Below are positions 4,478-22,380 of a stretch of 23,284 bases of DNA, piece by piece. Position 1 is the stretch's first letter. The number at the start of each line of letters is the position of its first letter. The notes beneath the pieces are model-generated. The model saw only the letters and a list, made by a program, of their open reading frames with translations. It was not told where the DNA came from and made no database searches. The stretch is from a virus. Made by a program: the position numbers and the translations under genes. The stretch lies in IMG/VR virus record IMGVR_UViG_3300022821_000118, positions 1-23,284 of that record; one strand, 5' to 3'.

Positions 4478-4789
4478 ATGATTAATGATGAAGTTAAACA
4501 AATAAGGGAAAGAATAGTTACTGGATTTTCCATTAACAGAATACCCTCAAAAGAAAAAGATTGGTTTATTCAGTTCGCTAAAGAAGAGTTCTGTGATGAC
4601 AGAGGATTCGCTTTAAAGCACTTAATAGATTTTTACAATGGATTGATACCCTCTGGTATTGAACACGTTGAAGGTACAGTATTAGCTCTTGAAGAAAGGG
4701 TTAAAGTATTGGAAGAAGCAAACGCTAAACCAATAGAAAAGAAAGTTCGGAAATCTTTAGATGGAAGAACAAGAATAGGAGAAAAATAA
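4478..4789 (+). CDS. Small coiled-coil protein in tail module, unknown
   Basis: A 103-residue charged protein with GAGGAGATGA before the ATG. Residues 70-85 (VLALEERVKVLEEANAK) are a clear coiled-coil heptad stretch, followed by a basic tail ending RTRIGEK. The N-terminal half is helical (DWFIQFAKEEFCDDRGFALKH). It sits between the tail tube gene and the chaperone-like genes and is separated from the next ATG by one base. No known family is recognised; a role in tail assembly is guessed from position. Confidence 0.6.
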   Translation: MINDEVKQIRERIVTGFSINRIPSKEKDWFIQFAKEEFCDDRGFALKHLIDFYNGLIPSGIEHVEGTVLALEERVKVLEEANAKPIEKKVRKSLDGRTRIGEK

Positions 4790-4790
4790 A

Positions 4791-5201
4791 ATGGTAGAAA
4801 TATTAATGAATGGGGTAGAAGTAAATCTTAAGAACCCTGGAACAAAAGGATTAAAAGATTTTTTAATAATACAACAAGCAATATCAACAATTCCTCCTTT
4901 AAACTTTAAAGGAAAATCTGAAGAAGAAAAACAAGAATTAATTAACAAAGCAGGTATGGAATTTTTAGGACATATGAACTCGAACCAATTAGATTCATTA
5001 ACTAACCTAGTAAACTTATCTTTAAAAAACACATTCGAAATAGTTACTCCAGAAATAGATCAATGGGCTATGACTAACAGCATGGACATTATGAGTGAAG
5101 TACTAGCTATGTGTTCACCAAAACAAAAAACTGATGATGAAAACAGAAAAGAAAAGTTAATAGAGAAATTAAACCATGACTCTTCAAAGTCCTCTGTCTA
5201 G
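4791..5201 (+). CDS. Tail assembly chaperone-like protein (gpG position)
   Basis: A 136-residue acidic, helical protein. It begins with a short beta hairpin (MVEILMNGVEVNLKNP), then helices (KGLKDFLIIQQAI, EEEKQELINKAG, LDSLTNLVNLSLKNTF), matching the usual make-up of tail assembly chaperones encoded just before the tape measure. Its last 26 bases overlap the next gene in the +1 frame, the layout in which lambda makes gpG and gpGT by frameshifting. Chaperones of this type coat the tape measure during tail assembly. The call is by position and composition. Confidence 0.55.
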   Translation: MVEILMNGVEVNLKNPGTKGLKDFLIIQQAISTIPPLNFKGKSEEEKQELINKAGMEFLGHMNSNQLDSLTNLVNLSLKNTFEIVTPEIDQWAMTNSMDIMSEVLAMCSPKQKTDDENRKEKLIEKLNHDSSKSSV

Positions 5202-5406
5202 TCAAGCGAAAGCTAAACCTTTAAACATAAAAGACTATGATATGATCAAACATTATTTCATAGAAACTTATGGTTACAAGATGTGGACTGAAGTACCGTT
5301 AGATGAACTATTCGAAATGTTACCTTTTTTATTCAAAGAGGTTGCTAAGAAAGAGAATCTGAGAATATGTAGCTTAAAGTTTTACGGAGTGAAAAATCCC
5401 AAATGA
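5176..5406 (+). CDS. Second tail assembly chaperone-like ORF (gpT position)
   Basis: A 76-residue protein overlapping the end of the previous gene by 26 bases (+1 relative frame) and overlapping the tape measure start by 4 bases (ATGA). The sequence includes KDYDMIKHYFIETYGYKMW and DELFEMLPFLFKEVAKKE. The ATG at 5176 has only a weak binding site (AGAG), and the frame is closed by TAA at 5170, so either internal initiation or a frameshift within 5173-5201 must express it. In lambda-like phages the equivalent ORF is made only as a fusion. Which applies here cannot be settled from sequence. Confidence 0.55.
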   Translation: MTLQSPLSSQAKAKPLNIKDYDMIKHYFIETYGYKMWTEVPLDELFEMLPFLFKEVAKKENLRICSLKFYGVKNPK

Positions 5407-6890
5407 CATTAGAAAAATTAGTTATCGAATTAGAAGCGACAGGTTTTGAACGATTACAAGGACAACTTTTGCGTTTACAGACATCTATGAGAACCTTGTT
5501 TAGTACTCAGAAGAAAGGGATAGGTTTATTTTCTAAACAAATAGAGGGTATAGGGCGTACTAAGAAAATGTTTGCTAGCATGAGCAAAACAAACACTAAC
5601 GCTGCACAAAGCACTCAAGCAGTACAAAATAGTTTACAAGATTTATTCTCAGGAGTAACTCCTCAAACAGCAACTTTCGGTAGCGTTATGCGTATGTCAA
5701 ACGAAGAGTTTGGTAGTTTCAATAAGAACGGTAGGAAATTTCAAACTACTGGTGGGAGAATGGCTAATAAATTACGTATGGCAACGGCAGGTCTTAAAGG
5801 CTTCCGTATGGAAATGTTGGGTGTAATGTTCTTCGGTATGGCTATGGCTAGAATGTTTAGCAGTATGTTGAGACCAGCTACTGAGGCTACAGGAATGTTC
5901 GAGATTTGGGGTACAGTATTAGAGGTAGTTTTTTTACCTGTCATGCTTGCTCTATTACCTTTATTCTTAAGTATCTCAGAAGCTTTAATAGAAATGGGTC
6001 CAGGAGCACAAATGGCTGTAGGAATATTTGCTATTTTAGGAATGATTGTTGGTAAAGTATTATTTTTAGTAGGAACTCTGGCTCTAGGTATTGGTTCATT
6101 AATGCAAGCAGGAGCTTTCGGTGCAATGAGTGGGTTTTTCCAAACAATATTAACTTTTTTAGGAGGATTAGGTGCTGCTGCAGCTATAGTCTTCGCAGTA
6201 GTTACAGCAATAATTATTGGTGCAGTACTTGCTTGGCAAACTAACTTCGGTAACTTCAGGGATTGGGTTGGTGTCCTTTGGCAAAGTATTAAAGATATAT
6301 TTGTTGGTTACTTCAAAATATTTGGTGGGATAATCAAAGTATTCACTGCTTTATTCAAGGGAGATATGGAGGGTGTTAAAGAAGGATTCAAACAAATATG
6401 GGAAGGTATTAAACAGTTTGTTGTAGGCGTTTTTAAGTTCGTAGTTTCTTTATTAGTAACTTTAGGTTTAGCAATATTAAAATTTATTACTTGGATCCTT
6501 AACGGTCTTTGGAATATGATTACAACAATAGTACAACTAGGAGTTGAATTAGGAACTAAACTAGCTAATGCTATGTGGGATGCTATGCCGTCATGGTTAC
6601 AGAAACTAATTAATGGAGTTATGAATATTACGGGGAAAATTGTTGGTTCAGTATTTGGTACTGGTGATGGTGCTAAGAAAGAGAATGATTTCATTATGAG
6701 ACCAGGGCAACAATCAGTAAGTATGAATCCTAACGATACAATAGTTGGTTTCAAAGGAGATTCTCCTTTTGGTGGTGGAGCTACAGTTAATCAAACATTA
6801 AACATTACAGTTAGTGATCCTGAAGAAATGTTAAGACTTATTCGTGGAGAGAACGATTCTTTAGTTAGAAAATTACAGAGGAATACATAA
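5403..6890 (+). CDS. Tail tape measure protein
   Basis: A 495-residue protein, the longest in the tail assembly block and directly after the chaperone-like genes. Residues 1-130 are helical and Gln/Thr-rich. Five hydrophobic segments follow (about 137-157, 170-196, 204-234, 255-279 and 338-368), as is usual in tape measures, which insert in the host membrane on ejection. The C-terminus has VNQTLNITVSDPEEM followed by a helix, a common tape-measure ending. At about 1.5 angstrom per residue, known for this family, the length predicts a short tail of roughly 70-75 nm. No lytic domain is seen. It overlaps both neighbours (ATGA before; TAATGG after). Confidence 0.85.
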   Translation: MTLEKLVIELEATGFERLQGQLLRLQTSMRTLFSTQKKGIGLFSKQIEGIGRTKKMFASMSKTNTNAAQSTQAVQNSLQDLFSGVTPQTATFGSVMRMSNEEFGSFNKNGRKFQTTGGRMANKLRMATAGLKGFRMEMLGVMFFGMAMARMFSSMLRPATEATGMFEIWGTVLEVVFLPVMLALLPLFLSISEALIEMGPGAQMAVGIFAILGMIVGKVLFLVGTLALGIGSLMQAGAFGAMSGFFQTILTFLGGLGAAAAIVFAVVTAIIIGAVLAWQTNFGNFRDWVGVLWQSIKDIFVGYFKIFGGIIKVFTALFKGDMEGVKEGFKQIWEGIKQFVVGVFKFVVSLLVTLGLAILKFITWILNGLWNMITTIVQLGVELGTKLANAMWDAMPSWLQKLINGVMNITGKIVGSVFGTGDGAKKENDFIMRPGQQSVSMNPNDTIVGFKGDSPFGGGATVNQTLNITVSDPEEMLRLIRGENDSLVRKLQRNT

Positions 6891-7681: not shown

Positions 7682-9469
7682 ATGGTAGCTATCCCACAAT
7701 TTTTTATTAGGAAAGGAGGTGTTAATTACATATTAATAGGTTTCAATTTCGAAAGAGAAGGGAATACTGCTGTTGACCAAACACCTTTTGAAGTTAGTAA
7801 AGGTAATGGACCTAATCTAAATATTGGTGATGATGCTAGTATTGGTTATATGGATGGTTCCTTCGTTTCTGAGTTTAGTGGTGATATAGTTAGTAAAGCA
7901 GTTTCTGAAACAGGAGTCTATACTCTTGAGAGTTATGGTGGTCGTTTGAATAGGGCTGCTCACTTTAGTCAAATCTTTGACGGTCAAACTCCTGAAGCTA
8001 TTGCTGAGAACATTATTGATAATCAGTTACCTAGCTTGACTTATGCTAGTACTGCGTCTTCTGGAATCACTATTGAACGATTCGTTATTAGAGATGAGAC
8101 TCCTGGTGAGGCTATTGGTCGGTTGGTTGAGTTACTTAATTGGCAGATAAGAACTGATAATGATAAAAACTTTTATTTCGAACCTATAGGTCACACGACT
8201 AACAGTACAACTTTGGAAGTAGGTGTTAACGCTATAGTTACTACTCCTTGGAGTGAGTCTCCTAATAGTTTAGTTAATAGTGTTTCTTTTATAGGTGGTG
8301 ATGCAGTTTTTAATACTGCTCAGTCATTCACTGCTACTGCTAGCCAGACAGTTTTTACTGTTGATAATAAGATTGTTGGTAATGTTAAAATTACTGATGA
8401 CGATACTGAGTTAGTTGGTGGTACTTCTGATAGCACTACTACTTTTGATTATAGTGTTGATTTTGATAATAGTATTATTACTTTCGAGGTTGGTAGAACT
8501 GTTGGTCATACGATCATTGTTAATTATGATTATGGTTTACCTATTAAGGTTACTGCTCAAGATGATGCTAGTATTACTGCTAATGGTATTTTTTCTACTA
8601 AGGTTACTGATGCTAGTATTAAGACTATGAGTGATGCTCGTAAGAGGGCTAAGCAGATACTTAATAATGGTTCTATAACTAAGAATAGTGAGATACAAAT
8701 TTCTTATAGTAGTACTTATCAGGTTGGTCAAACAGTTCAAGTTATAGATTCGTTTAATAGTGTGGATCAGCAAGTAGTTATTAATAAGTTAACTTTTAAT
8801 TATTTGGAGGGTGTTAAGAGGATTGAAGTTGGTAATACTAGAGATGGTGTTCTTGATTGGAATAAGGGTATTGATGCTCGTTTGAAGAAGTTAGAGAGTA
8901 AGCAAGATAATAGTGATCGTATCCAGAAATATATTCAAGTAGTTGAGACTATTAATATAACTCAAAGGCAAGGTAGAACTAAAGTATCCACTCAGTCACT
9001 TGGTAGTGCTTGGATAGTGGGTAGTTCAACCAATGGTCTTGTAGGTACTAACACAGCCACAATTAGTGGTAATCAACAAGTAGTAGGTGCAGGTGATAGA
9101 GGATCTAAAGTTGTTATTAGTGTTAAGAATCCTAACAGTACTTTCTATGAAAGGTTTAATTTCGTAAATTATATTGATACAGCTACAACTACTGCAACTC
9201 CAGATTACACTAATGAAGATTGTGATTTCCTTAACACAGAAGTATTACAAAGTCTAAGCGCTCAGAAAGGAGCAACAATAACTAAAGCTAAACTTACTTC
9301 AGATAGTACTACTAATTTAACTTTCGAGATGACTGCAGATAATTCTAATTGGGAATCAGTAACTAGTGGCACAATACACACCTTTACAAATACAGGTTCT
9401 GATTTAAGATTTAGAGCTACAGCTAGTGGTGCAGCAACGATAAGTTTAATAACTATAACATATGAATAA
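7682..9469 (+). CDS. Baseplate hub-like protein (gpD/gp27-type) with C-terminal beta domain
   Basis: A 595-residue protein. The N-terminal 300 residues have the hub layout: a strand-rich start, then RLNRAAHFSQIFDGQTPEAI with AENIIDNQL, and the segment FVIRDETPGEAIGRLVELLN with WQIRTDNDKNFYFEP (about 132-170), which is diagnostic of late-control-D/gp27-type tail hub proteins. A second hub-type region covers ITANGIFSTKVTD to about residue 395 ('R.AK.ILN.G...' then 'QVGQTVQV'). From about 415 onward there is a separate Thr/Ser-rich beta region ending in WESVTSGTIHTFTNTGSDL, which resembles a jelly-roll or carbohydrate-binding module. The stop overlaps the endonuclease start (TAATG). Confidence 0.65.
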   Translation: MVAIPQFFIRKGGVNYILIGFNFEREGNTAVDQTPFEVSKGNGPNLNIGDDASIGYMDGSFVSEFSGDIVSKAVSETGVYTLESYGGRLNRAAHFSQIFDGQTPEAIAENIIDNQLPSLTYASTASSGITIERFVIRDETPGEAIGRLVELLNWQIRTDNDKNFYFEPIGHTTNSTTLEVGVNAIVTTPWSESPNSLVNSVSFIGGDAVFNTAQSFTATASQTVFTVDNKIVGNVKITDDDTELVGGTSDSTTTFDYSVDFDNSIITFEVGRTVGHTIIVNYDYGLPIKVTAQDDASITANGIFSTKVTDASIKTMSDARKRAKQILNNGSITKNSEIQISYSSTYQVGQTVQVIDSFNSVDQQVVINKLTFNYLEGVKRIEVGNTRDGVLDWNKGIDARLKKLESKQDNSDRIQKYIQVVETINITQRQGRTKVSTQSLGSAWIVGSSTNGLVGTNTATISGNQQVVGAGDRGSKVVISVKNPNSTFYERFNFVNYIDTATTTATPDYTNEDCDFLNTEVLQSLSAQKGATITKAKLTSDSTTNLTFEMTADNSNWESVTSGTIHTFTNTGSDLRFRATASGAATISLITITYE

Positions 9470-10071
9470 TGATTAAAATGATAAACTATACTAAATTATA
9501 TGAACAATATACTGAAGGTAAATCCTCTAACGAAATAGCTAGAAGTTTAGGTGTTCGAGCAGGTACAGTAATTTATCATTTCAAAAAAAGAGGATTTAAA
9601 CTAAGAACTCAAAAAGAAGCCATAGCGAATAGACCTCCAGAACTAAAAGATAAAATTAGTAAAACATTAAAAAGAAAATATAAATCAGGAACAATAATTC
9701 AGTGGGCCACAGGATTAACTAAGGAAACTGATGAAAGAGTAAAAAGTGTAGCTTTATCAAAAACTGGAACAAATTATTATAATTGGAAAGGTGGTAAATG
9801 TGTTCACCCCTCTGGTGCAACAAGAATGAGTGAGAATGGAAGACAATTTTGGGAACATCATAAAGTGTGGTGTATTGCTAACAATTTCCCGTATATTCCT
9901 AAAGGGTTGGAAATACATCACATAAACTTAAATCCTTCAGATAACAGACCTGAAAATCTAGTTATGCTCCCTGGAACAATACATAGAAAATTACATGCAA
10001 AATTACAATTACGAACTAATCCAGATAGAAAATACTGGGGAAAAAATATACATTTAAGAGGTAAAGCATAA
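9469..10071 (+). CDS. Free-standing HNH homing endonuclease with N-terminal helix-turn-helix
   Basis: A 200-residue protein. Residues 6-45 form a helix-turn-helix (YEQYTEGKSSNEIARSLGVR then AGTVIYHFKKRGF). Residues 98-110 (SKTGTNYYNWKGG) match the NUMOD3-like DNA-binding motif common in phage homing endonucleases. The HNH core is at 127-176: EIHHIN (H150, H151), PENL (N163) and H172. These enzymes nick or cut intron-less alleles and spread by gene conversion. It sits between two virion genes and interrupts an otherwise contiguous TAATG junction. An alternative ATG is at 9478. Confidence in the family is high; activity is inferred from intact catalytic residues. Confidence 0.9.
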   Translation: MIKMINYTKLYEQYTEGKSSNEIARSLGVRAGTVIYHFKKRGFKLRTQKEAIANRPPELKDKISKTLKRKYKSGTIIQWATGLTKETDERVKSVALSKTGTNYYNWKGGKCVHPSGATRMSENGRQFWEHHKVWCIANNFPYIPKGLEIHHINLNPSDNRPENLVMLPGTIHRKLHAKLQLRTNPDRKYWGKNIHLRGKA

Positions 10072-20026: not shown

Positions 20027-20227
20027 TTATTTTTTGAACTCTTTATACTTCTTTTCCATTAACTCTTCAACTAAAGCTTCTTGATAAGATTCTCTCCAAG
20101 ATTCAAACTCTTCAGTTAAGCCTTTAACATCTAAGTATAACTCTGCATCTTGCAACTTTGATAACTCTCTTTTAGTATTATCTAACTCTTTCTCTCTTAA
20201 CATATATTTCTCTTCTGGTTCTTTCAT
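20027..20227 (-). CDS. Coiled-coil protein, 66 residues
   Basis: The start at 20227 is chosen because AGAGGAT lies 5-6 bases upstream; an upstream start at 20245 would overlap the small membrane gene. The product is almost all charged helix (EKYMLREKELDNTKRELSKL, then ESWRESYQEALVEELMEKK), a probable coiled coil. No function can be assigned. Confidence 0.6.
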   Translation of the reverse strand: MKEPEEKYMLREKELDNTKRELSKLQDAELYLDVKGLTEEFESWRESYQEALVEELMEKKYKEFKK

Positions 20228-20237
20228 CTTAATCCTC

Positions 20238-20342
20238 TTAATCAAATATTAAATTACTAATGATCCACCCTACCATAAAACTAACTAATGTTAAGATAAC
20301 CATAAGCATAACGTGTAACCTTGCAAACTCTTTCTTATTCAT
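20238..20342 (-). CDS. Single-pass membrane micro-protein, 34 residues
   Basis: A 34-codon frame that starts inside the end of the previous gene (8-base overlap) and ends 10 bases before the next start. The product begins MNKKEFARLH, then has one hydrophobic helix (VMLMVILTLVSFMVGWIISN) and ends LIFD. A GGTG lies 9 bases upstream. The fit between neighbours and clean membrane topology support it as a real gene. Confidence 0.55.
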   Translation of the reverse strand: MNKKEFARLHVMLMVILTLVSFMVGWIISNLIFD

Positions 20343-20559
20343 CTTCTACACCTTCACGTTTGTATTTATCAATAATAGTTTTTATTGGTTCTGAGAATCT
20401 CTCAGCCATCAAAACTATTTCTTTCTCATTACCGAAATAAACTCCTTTAGATATATAATAATCCATACAACTATTATAAACTTTCATAGTTTCTAAAGGA
20501 TCAATATCGTGGCTGTTCTTGTAATCATTCATTAATTGTGTTAAGTTATTATTATTCAT
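20335..20559 (-). CDS. Small protein, 74 residues, next to transposon right end
   Basis: Starts MNNNNLTQLMNDYKNSHD and continues with helices (METMKVYNSC-like segment; ERFSEPIKTIIDKYKREG). Its ATG is in the ATGA at 20559-20556 that ends the methyltransferase gene and marks the proposed transposon edge. If the element is removed, the ATG is rebuilt from the target ATGA. So the gene probably belonged to the operon before the insertion. Function unknown. Confidence 0.6.
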   Translation of the reverse strand: MNNNNLTQLMNDYKNSHDIDPLETMKVYNSCMDYYISKGVYFGNEKEIVLMAERFSEPIKTIIDKYKREGVEDE

Positions 20560-21197
20560 AATCTTTTAGGCAGGATACCCACTAATTCATTAGTGGGAGG
20601 AATGCCGTCCTCCATTTCTTTACTATCAATCCATCTTAATATTGTATCTCCAGTATATCCTTTTTCAAAAATATACCATGCGTAAAATTGTGTTGTTGCT
20701 TTTAGGTTTTTAAAATCAGCATTCATAGAACATTGTTGCCTAGATGAATGAGCATAAATAAATTTAATATTATATTTTCTAAATAGTTCTCTTCTCTTTT
20801 GACCTTCAATAAATTGTATTTTTAAAAATAAAATTAATTTATTTCCTTTGTTTATTAAACTCATACCTTTTTCTATAAATTCTTCTGCTAATTTAAAAGG
20901 GGGATTTGTTAATATATCCCCATAATGTTTTAAATTTGTTTTTGTAAAATCTAATGGTGTATCTCCATAACCCCTATTTATTAAATCAGAAGAAAAAACT
21001 TTATATTTTTGTTTTTTTAATTCTTCTGACAAATGTCCTTTTCCACAAGCACATTCCCAAATATGTTTATTTAAAATAATATTATCTTTTTTCAATGATT
21101 GTAAGAATAACTTTAATGCTTTTGGATTTGTAGCATAAAAATCGTTATCTTCTCTTTTTGAATTAGGATTTACACCTAACATTAATCCTGCTTTCAT
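20556..21197 (-). CDS. DNA adenine-type methyltransferase, phage Dam-like, within the transposon
   Basis: A 213-residue protein. DFYATNPKAL (19-28) is the opening motif of phage Dam-like methyltransferases. HIWECACGKGHLSEEL (45-60) is the S-adenosylmethionine loop, D71 follows in KVFSSD, and NPPF (98-101) is the catalytic motif of N6-adenine type enzymes. The family usually ends near YAWYIFEKGYTGDTILRWI (172-190). The last 23 residues (DSKEMEDGIPP..., ending LPKRL) go beyond that and are encoded across the transposon right-end hairpin. AGGAG is 7 bases before the ATG, which overlaps the tnpA stop by ATGA. No partner nuclease is next to it. Confidence 0.85.
   Translation of the reverse strand: MKAGLMLGVNPNSKREDNDFYATNPKALKLFLQSLKKDNIILNKHIWECACGKGHLSEELKKQKYKVFSSDLINRGYGDTPLDFTKTNLKHYGDILTNPPFKLAEEFIEKGMSLINKGNKLILFLKIQFIEGQKRRELFRKYNIKFIYAHSSRQQCSMNADFKNLKATTQFYAWYIFEKGYTGDTILRWIDSKEMEDGIPPTNELVGILPKRL
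20569..20606 (-). repeat. Transposon right-end (RE) hairpin
   Basis: CCCACTAAT and ATTAGTGGG pair perfectly around a 2-base loop (20578-20597). GGCA/TGCC extends the stem beyond a 5-by-5 internal loop to 20569-20606. It lies about 18 bases before the proposed right cleavage site (ATGA) and inside the end of the methyltransferase gene. It is the type of subterminal structure bound by TnpA. Confidence 0.65.
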
Positions 21198-21748
21198 AAA
21201 AATACTCCTAATTTAGTTTGATTAGCAAACTTACCTATTTTCTGATTAGGACTTCCAAAGACAGAATACTCAAACACATCTTTTCCTTCTTGCTCGTTAA
21301 TGTATCTCCTTACTGCTTCTTGGCTTACATGACCTGCACTTCCACAATAATATCCTTTAGCCCATAAGTTAGGAAATCTTTTTCCATAACTCCAGAGTAA
21401 GTAAGGTAAGTGTTTGAAACATCTTCTTAGTTGAATACTTGTGTTTCCTTTTAATTGTTTAACAATTTTAAAAGGTGTGTGTTTCGGTTTAGCACCTACG
21501 AATAAGTGTATGTGGTCAGGCATTACTTCTAAAGCCAACATATCTAAATCAAGGTCTTCACATTGTCCTTGAATAATATCTTTAAGCACAGATACCACCT
21601 TCCCTGTTAAGACTTTTCTCCGATACTTTGGAATCCAGATTATATGATAATTGATGTTGTATTTGCAGTGAGAACCTGTCCTCACAGTTGCTATCTTTAC
21701 ATCTAAATTGTACTTTGTTGGATTGAAATGTTTGTATTCGTTTTTCAT
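21194..21748 (-). CDS. tnpA: IS200/IS605 family transposase TnpA (Y1 HUH enzyme)
   Basis: A 184-residue protein. The start is set at ATG 21748: AGGTGA lies 7 bases upstream, while the GTG at 21757 overlaps that site. The family signatures are all present: YNINYHIIWIPKYRRKVL (30-47), the HUH motif PDHIHLFV (H79, H81), the conserved GNTSIQLRR region (101-109), KGYYCGSAGHVSQEAV (131-146), and the catalytic Tyr with a metal-binding Gln in RRYINEQ (Y149, Q153). The enzyme works as a dimer on single-stranded DNA and excises the element as a circle. The tail of about 30 residues beyond the usual end (SVFGSPNQKIG...) is longer than in most relatives. It is coupled to the methyltransferase gene by ATGA. 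Confidence 0.95.
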   Translation of the reverse strand: MKNEYKHFNPTKYNLDVKIATVRTGSHCKYNINYHIIWIPKYRRKVLTGKVVSVLKDIIQGQCEDLDLDMLALEVMPDHIHLFVGAKPKHTPFKIVKQLKGNTSIQLRRCFKHLPYLLWSYGKRFPNLWAKGYYCGSAGHVSQEAVRRYINEQEGKDVFEYSVFGSPNQKIGKFANQTKLGVFL

Positions 21749-21778
21749 AATTATCACCTATAATCAAGTGATAATTAT
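21747..21778 (-). promoter_or_regulatory. Hairpin over the tnpA binding site and start codon
   Basis: A perfect 11-bp stem (ATAATTATCAC with GTGATAATTAT, 10-base loop) covers most of the AGGTGA ribosome-binding site and the A and U of the AUG at 21748. In the mRNA it would keep ribosomes off. IS200 transposase mRNA is known to be limited in this way by a start-site stem. Confidence 0.6.
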
Positions 21779-21790
21779 TCTTTTTAGGTT

Positions 21791-21862
21791 GCATGTTGAA
21801 CGAACCACACATTAAACTTTTCTCTGAAAGGGAACAGTTTAAGTTAAGTGGTTTGTGTATGC
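21791..21862 (-). repeat. Imperfect inverted repeat in the transposon leader
   Basis: Three 4-6 bp stems in order: GCAT (21791) with ATGC (21859), AACCAC (21803) with GTGGTT (21848), TTAAAC (21812) with GTTTAA (21837), separated by small internal loops. Together about 72 bases. In IS200 a leader structure in this place stops read-through transcription from outside and supports a small regulatory RNA. Role here is inferred. Confidence 0.4.
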
Positions 21863-21903
21863 TAACCGTATTTTTTGTTTTTACCATTTTTCTTTTGTTT
21901 TTG

Positions 21904-21935
21904 GAAACTACCTACTTTAGTGGGTAGAGGGTTTC
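21904..21935 (-). repeat. Transposon left-end (LE) hairpin
   Basis: CTACC/GGTAG (21908-21912 with 21923-21927) forms the core. TTTC/GAAA extends it past a 4-base bulge to 21904-21935, and inside the loop ACT/AGT may pair. It carries CCCACTAA on the minus strand like the right end. It starts about 7 bases inside the proposed left edge and lies right after the stop codon of the neighbouring gene. Confidence 0.6.
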
Positions 21936-22176
21936 ATTTTCTTTCTAAGCCTCTCCTTAATAATAATCCTTCATTAAAAGCTTCAATACAACCTATAGCT
22001 CTAAAGATTTCTCTTTGACACTCTTCACTCTCTAAACTAAACTCTCTTAATGATTGTAACTTGTATAAATCGCCTTTAATAGATTCTGCTTTACCAAAAA
22101 TATTCTTATACCTTACTCCATCTCTTAAAGTTATAGAGTTGGTTTTTTCATCGTCAGTAATTTTATATATTTTCAT
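21934..22176 (-). CDS. Small protein, 80 residues, ending at transposon left edge
   Basis: A charged protein starting MKIYKITDDEKTNSITLRDG and ending in the helical GCIEAFNEGLLLRRGLERK. Its stop TGA is part of the target ATGA at the transposon edge, so the insertion left the gene intact. It starts in an ATGA overlap with the 41-residue gene. No family recognised. Confidence 0.6.
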   Translation of the reverse strand: MKIYKITDDEKTNSITLRDGVRYKNIFGKAESIKGDLYKLQSLREFSLESEECQREIFRAIGCIEAFNEGLLLRRGLERK

Positions 22177-22298
22177 TCTTTAACCCACTCCAAAAGTTTA
22201 ACAGCGTATAAGACAAAACTTTCTTTACTCCTAACGCTAATTATAGAATCTTTAATCTCTTTGATCTTATTATTTATTTCTTCTTCAGTTTTCATCAT
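22173..22298 (-). CDS. Micro-protein, 41 residues
   Basis: Starts with ATGATG, overlapping the previous 31-residue gene by 14 bases in another frame, and ends in an ATGA overlap with the next gene. The product is a single charged helix (KTEEEINNKIKEIKDSIISV and SFVLYAVKLLEWVKE). Supported by the end-to-end packing. Confidence 0.5.
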   Translation of the reverse strand: MMKTEEEINNKIKEIKDSIISVRSKESFVLYAVKLLEWVKE

Positions 22299-22380
22299 TA
22301 ACCTTTAACATTTCTTTTTCTAATTCATCCAAGTCTTTAGATAGTTGTTTGTATTCTTGATCCCAAGTTTCTTTAGTCAT
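22285..22380 (-). CDS. Micro-protein, 31 residues, coiled-coil-like
   Basis: The ATG overlaps the stop of the preceding 112-residue gene (ATGA). The product MTKETWDQEYKQLSKDLDEL followed by EKEMLKVNDEN is a charged helix. It matches the neighbouring genes in style. Tiny size limits confidence. Confidence 0.5.
   Translation of the reverse strand: MTKETWDQEYKQLSKDLDELEKEMLKVNDEN

Follow-up and report, generated by a model that had tools for sequence, protein, structure and literature searches.

A probable passenger-carrying IS200/IS605-type transposon family of viruses with an exchangeable DNA methyltransferase cargo

IS200/IS605 elements are, to our knowledge, considered minimal elements in which the transposase TnpA has TnpB or IscB as its sole regular partner. 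Elements carrying tnpA alone or tnpA plus tnpB (IS200, IS608, ISDra2) have Y1 HUH catalytic motifs, subterminal hairpins, no terminal inverted repeats and insertion 3′ of a fixed tetranucleotide, all of which recur in the element described here. Among the IscB/IsrB elements, the TAM of IsrB is NTGA, and ATGA gets cut (PMC9581776). Passenger genes have been described in transporter insertion sequences (tIS), as have an endonuclease and a methyltransferase in mariner elements of giant viruses (PMC3627910), and IS200/IS605 transposases have been found near the genes of diversity-generating retroelements (DGRs) in cyanobacteria (PMC7517822).

The stretch of DNA analyzed here, hereafter the window, is a virus record of 23,284 bases that holds structural genes, those for the tail among them, and a primase-like gene. 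On its minus strand, where all features of this paragraph lie, an element of 1378 nt (20556–21933) comprises a left end (LE), tnpA, a methyltransferase gene and a right end (RE), its extent being defined by blastn limits common to unrelated loci, by LE and RE comparison and by an ATGA at both ends. The left flanking target tetranucleotide (ATGA, 21934–21937) also contains the stop TGA of the upstream gene (21934–22176), and the LE (21908–21933) has a subterminal hairpin, CTACCCACTAAAGTAGGTAG, at 21908–21927. The structured 5′ region of tnpA (21746–21872; DNA fold z −3.9) consists of a long hairpin followed by a stem, AATTATCAC/GTGATAATT, that spans the ribosome-binding site and start of tnpA; it resembles the translational control of IS200 tnpA and may have a regulatory role. 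The tnpA gene occupies 21194–21748 (184 aa from the ATG at 21748, or 187 aa from a GTG at 21757), and the ATGA at 21194–21197 is common to its stop and to the start of the overlapping methyltransferase gene (20556–21197, 213 aa). The RE hairpin (20569–20606) lies inside the 3′ end of the methyltransferase gene, so that the RE encodes approximately the last 20 residues of the protein, and is built from an outer stem GGCA/TGCC, an internal loop TTCCT/TATCC and an inner stem CCCACTAAT/ATTAGTGGG. The last four bases of the element are again ATGA (20556–20559), in which the methyltransferase gene stops and the next gene (20335–20559) has its start codon. Removing the element leaves one ATGA in which the upstream gene stops and the downstream gene begins, and the predicted empty join runs from GAAAGAAAATGA directly into ATAATAATAAC.

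ORF and profile comparison detected no tnpB gene in the element; no iscB gene or HEARO RNA was found near it (Rfam, window 20200–22300, where the sole match was a sub-threshold, chance GcvB), and no restriction enzyme that could partner the methyltransferase is present within the element. Elsewhere in the window, an HNH endonuclease gene (9469–10071, phrog_7545) overlaps its neighbors in the structural gene block and is likely to encode a homing endonuclease.

The window TnpA matches Y1_Tnp (PF01797, E 5.6e-36), and its HxH motif (MPDHIHLF) and C-terminal tyrosine (VRRYINEQ) are in register with solved IS200/IS605 transposases when aligned to 2f4f, with ISHp608 (2a6m) among the matches. Residues D78, H79, H81 and Y149 are invariant within its clade, which typically has a C-terminal extension; the TnpAs associated with TnpB in phage contigs lack this extension and branch apart with modest support. 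The nearest relative of the window TnpA is that of L002 (94% identical), the next sister is L003, and this subclade is so far only viral. The second gene matches phrog_799 (E 6.5e-53) and has an NPPF motif; by profile and motif it is a phage orphan DNA methyltransferase, with DNA methylation as its predicted activity. The original prediction of a complete Y1 transposase and an ATGA-coupled methyltransferase in one IS200/IS605-type element, with the methyltransferase in the slot usually held by tnpB or iscB, is confirmed by this layout.

To define the ends, the element with approximately 500 nt of flank was used as a blastn query against the loci fetched with TnpA. The outermost limits of the matches fell at element-strand positions 461 (458–462 for the LE) and 1845–1852 (RE), with no flank matches beyond; 461 and 1845 correspond to window 21940 and 20556, and the matches begin within 10 bases and end within 7 bases of the proposed ends. 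The LE is approximately 93–99% identical to the LEs of L029 and L038 over 70–71 nt, and the RE is 85–93% identical to the REs of unrelated viruses over 59–84 nt, these matches reaching the predicted end or stopping no more than 7 nt from it. The limits that had been predicted from the window by itself were upheld by these boundaries, as was the placement of the RE hairpin within the methyltransferase gene. Of the two hairpins proposed to match each other, the RE hairpin folds well as DNA (z −3.0), whereas the LE hairpin on its own is thermodynamically weak (z −1.1) and is credible because the LE is conserved in other loci found by blastn (L029, L003, L034, L038 and L036), which have the same left ATGA. 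The sequence shared by the two hairpins, CCCACTAA, which was considered as a recognition feature, had to be given up in that role: it is particular to the window subfamily, and other members lack it.

What is constant across the family is the architecture of the RE. REs gathered from viruses and genomes with a sequence pattern uniformly have an outer stem, the constant loop TTCCT/TATCC and an inner stem CCC/GGG, followed by ATGA 17 nt further on; the distance from TATCC to the end of ATGA is exactly 17 nt in 19 of 19 viral cargo-family REs with the full motif and an ATGA in reach, whereas a few copies, from genomes or elsewhere, have 16 or 18 nt. The pattern itself did not include ATGA. The stems covary, with a score of 0.543 among 22 distinct REs against 0.115 ± 0.023 in shuffled and at most 0.121 in slid controls. 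An LE is present in 13 resolved elements; the LE scan and its regular expression included ATGA, so that the left ATGA is independent evidence only in the loci found by blastn. The exceptions are the LE of L005, which lacks ATGA, and the right end of L053, which is ATAA. Terminal inverted repeats are absent, insertion is 3′ of a fixed short target without target duplication (with ATGA built into the LE pattern for part of the scan), and the distance from hairpin to predicted cleavage site is fixed. A CAT 5′ of many hairpins could pair with ATG, although by-eye inspection found these pairings to be inconsistent across variants. Several matches to a looser RE pattern (for example L079, L082, L085, L094 and L063) were set aside as chance or other elements.

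We consider it very probable that the window holds a passenger-carrying transposon of the IS200/IS605 (Y1) type, with the methyltransferase as an exchangeable cargo gene lying between tnpA and the RE. Viral elements with the same ends carry varied cargo, and by our count 14 of 24 have a methyltransferase. At least eight PHROG or Pfam families are represented, with N6-adenine and C5 chemistry: phrog_799 (window, L041), phrog_11619 (L003, L040), phrog_67/PF01555 (L034 and L036, L048 by the sequence of its C-terminus, and by PF01555 L111 and, weakly, the second unit of L043), MT-A70 phrog_359 (L037), phrog_954 (L039) and the C5 methyltransferases phrog_757 (L053), phrog_363 (L047) and PF00145 (L113). 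By comparison, among 120 ORFs that lie outside the elements and have at least 120 aa, 6 show a methyltransferase motif (Fisher 5e-9), a ratio to be read as indicative since cargo was counted by family match or motif and background by motif alone. Two different methyltransferases are carried by two cassettes in single viral genomes, namely contig 3300009128_000056 (L043, with no left end located for its second unit) and contig 3300035698_026777 (L037/L038, L047). In L113, an element with tnpA and a C5 methyltransferase (4548–5972) has a right-end ATGA that serves as start codon for another, different C5 methyltransferase; the latter is 46% identical to the L047 cargo, and the arrangement could represent a snapshot of cargo capture.

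Judged by the type of cargo, the passenger methyltransferase probably serves anti-restriction. Some cargo is not obviously DNA-modifying. A radical SAM protein (phrog_9298) is carried by L052 and its 59%-identical homolog L108, ORFs with no assigned function by L004, L005, L007, L097, L044 and L068, and small ORFs are carried as well. These genes, the L005 ORF among them, together with the regulatory roles that orphan phage methyltransferases can have, leave some room for a benefit to the virus other than anti-restriction, such as gene regulation, a packaging signal, or nucleotide or RNA modification. We regard this as rather unlikely, since the diversity of methyltransferase families and a second cargo resembling a DNA-modification enzyme fit selection for changing DNA modification: the PAPS-reductase-like protein (phrog_424; L002, L050) encoded at L002:578–1495 matches SspD of DNA phosphorothioation (E 8e-14) and may, too, modify DNA.

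Small ORFs lie between the LE and tnpA, one in L029 and a related ribbon-helix-helix-like pair in L068 (1648–1815) and L111 (3868–4008), the latter possibly encoding regulators of the element. L068, whose RE directly follows tnpA, was considered as a tnpA-only ancestor and rejected, as four small ORFs precede its tnpA. The two ends of contig 3300031227_000189 (L002 and L029) carry tnpA copies with amino-acid differences, which suggests that it holds more than one copy of the element.

Cargo appears to turn over fast, because the TnpA nearest to that of the window (L002) is accompanied by the unrelated PAPS-reductase-like gene; L003 carries another methyltransferase, and L041, L052 and L053 have near-identical REs behind three unrelated cargos. 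Many cassettes have no tnpA at all (L040, L041, L047, L053, L097) or have lost it except for the 3′ end, which persists as a short ORF that runs into the cargo (L034, L036, L037/L038, L052). In several of the latter the remnant is the last ~75–95 nt of tnpA, with LE and RE retained, and the shortest tnpA-less cassettes measure 351 nt, cargo included. They look like non-autonomous units that would be served by TnpA in trans.

The same observations could be explained if cargo were swapped by homologous or illegitimate recombination between the conserved tnpA 3′ and RE segments, with elements that now move rarely or never: short conserved segments (the last 75–95 nt of tnpA and the RE) flank variable cargo as in recombination cassettes, and in copies without tnpA the LE is joined to what remains of the tnpA 3′ end. 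As a replacement for transposition this is unlikely, because TnpA is intact and unrelated loci have matching geometry (LE after ATGA, and RE, 17 nt and ATGA), which needs transposition; exchange by recombination is, moreover, compatible with movement by TnpA.

The sites of insertion are consistent with a mobile passenger element. When the flanks are joined at ATGA, an ORF of at least 45 aa opens from that ATG in 10 of the 13 elements with both ends, and one of 42 aa in an eleventh, compared with ORFs of at least 47 aa at 30.5% of all ATGA sites in these contigs (p 7.5e-4). The rejoined ATG is often preceded by a Shine-Dalgarno-like motif. The family therefore usually inserts at the start codon of a gene, and insertion tends to keep genes whole and to place cargo in an operon. 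L003 is an exception, lying inside an ORF that it splits and that excision would restore. For the window itself, scans of viral contigs with the methyltransferase or primase as query found neither a close relative of the virus nor an empty site of the element.

A better view of an empty site comes from archaeal genomes. In the phylum of archaeon GW2011_AR20, which NCBI places under unclassified Archaea and which we take to be a DPANN archaeon, 73 of 279 sampled genomes have a match to the TnpA profile, 11 of them at E ≤ 1e-35 and the best at ~1e-100. The main reservoir lies neither in the Minisyncoccota, where 1 of 287 genomes matched through the L068 contig (found in a Methylococcales bin too, as L069), nor in the Halobacteriota, where 6 of 197 matched over the core domain only. 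Since matches are frequent in the GW2011_AR20 phylum, the viruses with these elements may infect such archaea; among phage records, from which the host of the window virus could not be identified, its primase gave no match and its tape-measure protein weak ones. Three of the archaeal genomes, G029 (L143, L159), G054 (L151) and G209 (L154, L161), have elements with the same LE and RE design and TnpA clade that enclose a complete DGR, including its target gene and reverse transcriptase (for L154, RVT_1 at E 7e-27). In the two examined for repeats, changes from TR to VR are at A in 19 of 21 (L143) and 12 of 15 (L154) cases. Behind the reverse transcriptase, all three have GGCATTCATCCCACAAAT.AATTTGTGGGTATTCTGCC and a further 17 nt as their right end, and G029 has several tnpA copies, two of them beside related target genes. 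In G209 the DGR unit lies between proA and proB, the matched ends of which are 97 nt apart in the relative G572; joining the G209 flanks gives ..GKKNFLH followed by EKIR and a stop, like ..GKKTFTHKKK and a stop in G572, which would restore the ProA C-terminus. We consider this comparison, read from sequence, to be the best empty-site evidence for the ends of the family; of the empty sites called for by the original prediction, a candidate was thus seen in the relative of one archaeal element and none for the window. A further archaeal element, L148 (G233), holds two genes that on inspection resemble an acyl-CoA dehydratase subunit and its ATPase activator.

The original prediction also suggested a role for the methyltransferase in transposition, either in marking excised or target DNA or in steering the process. 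The prevalence of methyltransferases, which outnumber every other type of cargo (14 of 24), and the coupling of the window gene to tnpA would suit a participant that marks donor, target or strand. We nevertheless think this highly improbable: the cargo methyltransferases belong to unrelated families with N6-adenine or C5 chemistry, close TnpA relatives travel with PAPS-reductase-like or other genes, and cargo of DGR and metabolic type is found in archaeal genomes. Because near-identical TnpAs carry a PAPS-reductase-like gene or unrelated methyltransferases, and tnpA-less cassettes keep a methyltransferase, the window gene is most probably an exchangeable passenger and not a transposition factor.

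METHYLTRANSFERASE is cargo of the element, between tnpA and the right end. Phage homologs of the window methyltransferase stop at query residues 190–199 and lack the tail that the RE encodes, and BLASTP between otherwise unrelated cargo methyltransferases gives matches mainly over the last 20–30 residues, that is, the RE tail (92% over 25 aa for L034 and L037, 71% over 21 aa for the window and L037). The RE must be conserved as DNA, because its encoded tail is read in different frames in different cargo ORFs (..RHSSH in L003, ..RHSLFE in L036 and ..GIPPTNELVGILPKRL in the window, with a different frame in L002 as well). That the methyltransferase is a resident viral gene with a tnpA-only element inserted beside it and a coincidental hairpin within it is scarcely credible, for although several of these viruses hold other methyltransferase-like genes outside elements and the gene overlaps the next one by ATGA like a resident operon gene, the RE is shared with unrelated viruses up to its predicted end, its stems covary, homologs lack the tail and the tnpA-methyltransferase junction has no room for a right end. 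In agreement with this, a methyltransferase scan of viral contigs found no relative in which the window gene stays at its locus without the element, and no copy was found with a right end before the window methyltransferase, that of L068 following a tnpA that is itself preceded by other genes.

For the passenger-carrying transposon, we propose the following course of events, modeled on the IS200/IS605 family. TnpA would recognize the hairpins near both ends on one DNA strand, cut after ATGA on each side and move the LE-tnpA-cargo-RE strand to another ATGA. Landing would usually be at a gene start, as ATGA is a common start-codon context that the right end restores. The cargo would then be expressed from the upstream operon, with the displaced gene keeping its overlapping ATGA start, presumably with translational coupling. 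Cassettes without tnpA that have the same ends would move too, with TnpA presumably supplied in trans. Viruses would probably benefit by acquiring and swapping DNA-modifying enzymes that shield their DNA from host restriction. One possible route into the cargo slot is that two copies at neighboring ATGA starts bracket a gene and move as a unit; such a neighborhood is exemplified by L113, in which the right-end ATGA of an element doubles as the start of a methyltransferase gene.

We lean, with some reserve, towards a broader reading in which the family is a general single-stranded DNA shuttle for gene cassettes in viruses and DPANN-type archaea. Single-gene cassettes would be moved in cis or in trans to ATGA start-codon sites, where cargo becomes part of the operon by overlap of start and stop codons without costing the displaced gene its start; the cargo would turn over quickly and include many methyltransferases and, in archaeal genomes, complete DGRs. 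If this is true, the partner slot of these transposons is an exchange port through which viruses, and perhaps DPANN archaea, change their DNA modification gene by gene without breaking operons. The family would also offer a physical vehicle for the spread of diversity-generating retroelements, and a mobile DGR deserves a study of its own, while the tnpA-less cassettes would be ready-made units for ssDNA-based gene insertion at ATGA.

Each part of the element is already known separately: the transposase, the type of end (common to IscB/HEARO elements) and phage methyltransferases. The original prediction knew of no description of the pairing, and we likewise found no report in the open literature, the range of our search, of exchangeable methyltransferase or DGR cargo in IS200/IS605 elements; subscription papers were outside the search, so absence is unproven. 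In contrast to IS200, IS608 and ISDra2, the window family lacks tnpB, has exchangeable unrelated cargo in its place and includes many tnpA-less single-gene cassettes. The right-end design is the same as that of IscB/IsrB (HEARO, OMEGA) elements, and in L067 and L083 IscB-like genes with HEARO RNA run into a right end TTCCTCCC..GGGTATCCTGC..ATGA, the L067 tail being ..GIPPTPEGAGILP; the window element, however, has no IscB gene or HEARO RNA and carries a methyltransferase as cargo. tIS and the giant-virus mariner elements are likewise transposase elements with passenger genes, methyltransferases included, but they use DDE-type double-strand transposition, whereas the window family has predicted Y1 single-stranded DNA chemistry, one-gene cassettes, ATGA start-codon targeting and frequent cargo exchange. 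Integron gene cassettes are small exchangeable single-gene units too, a resemblance that is functional only: the window family has neither a tyrosine-recombinase integrase nor attC, and each of its units has transposon ends and occupies scattered ATGA sites.
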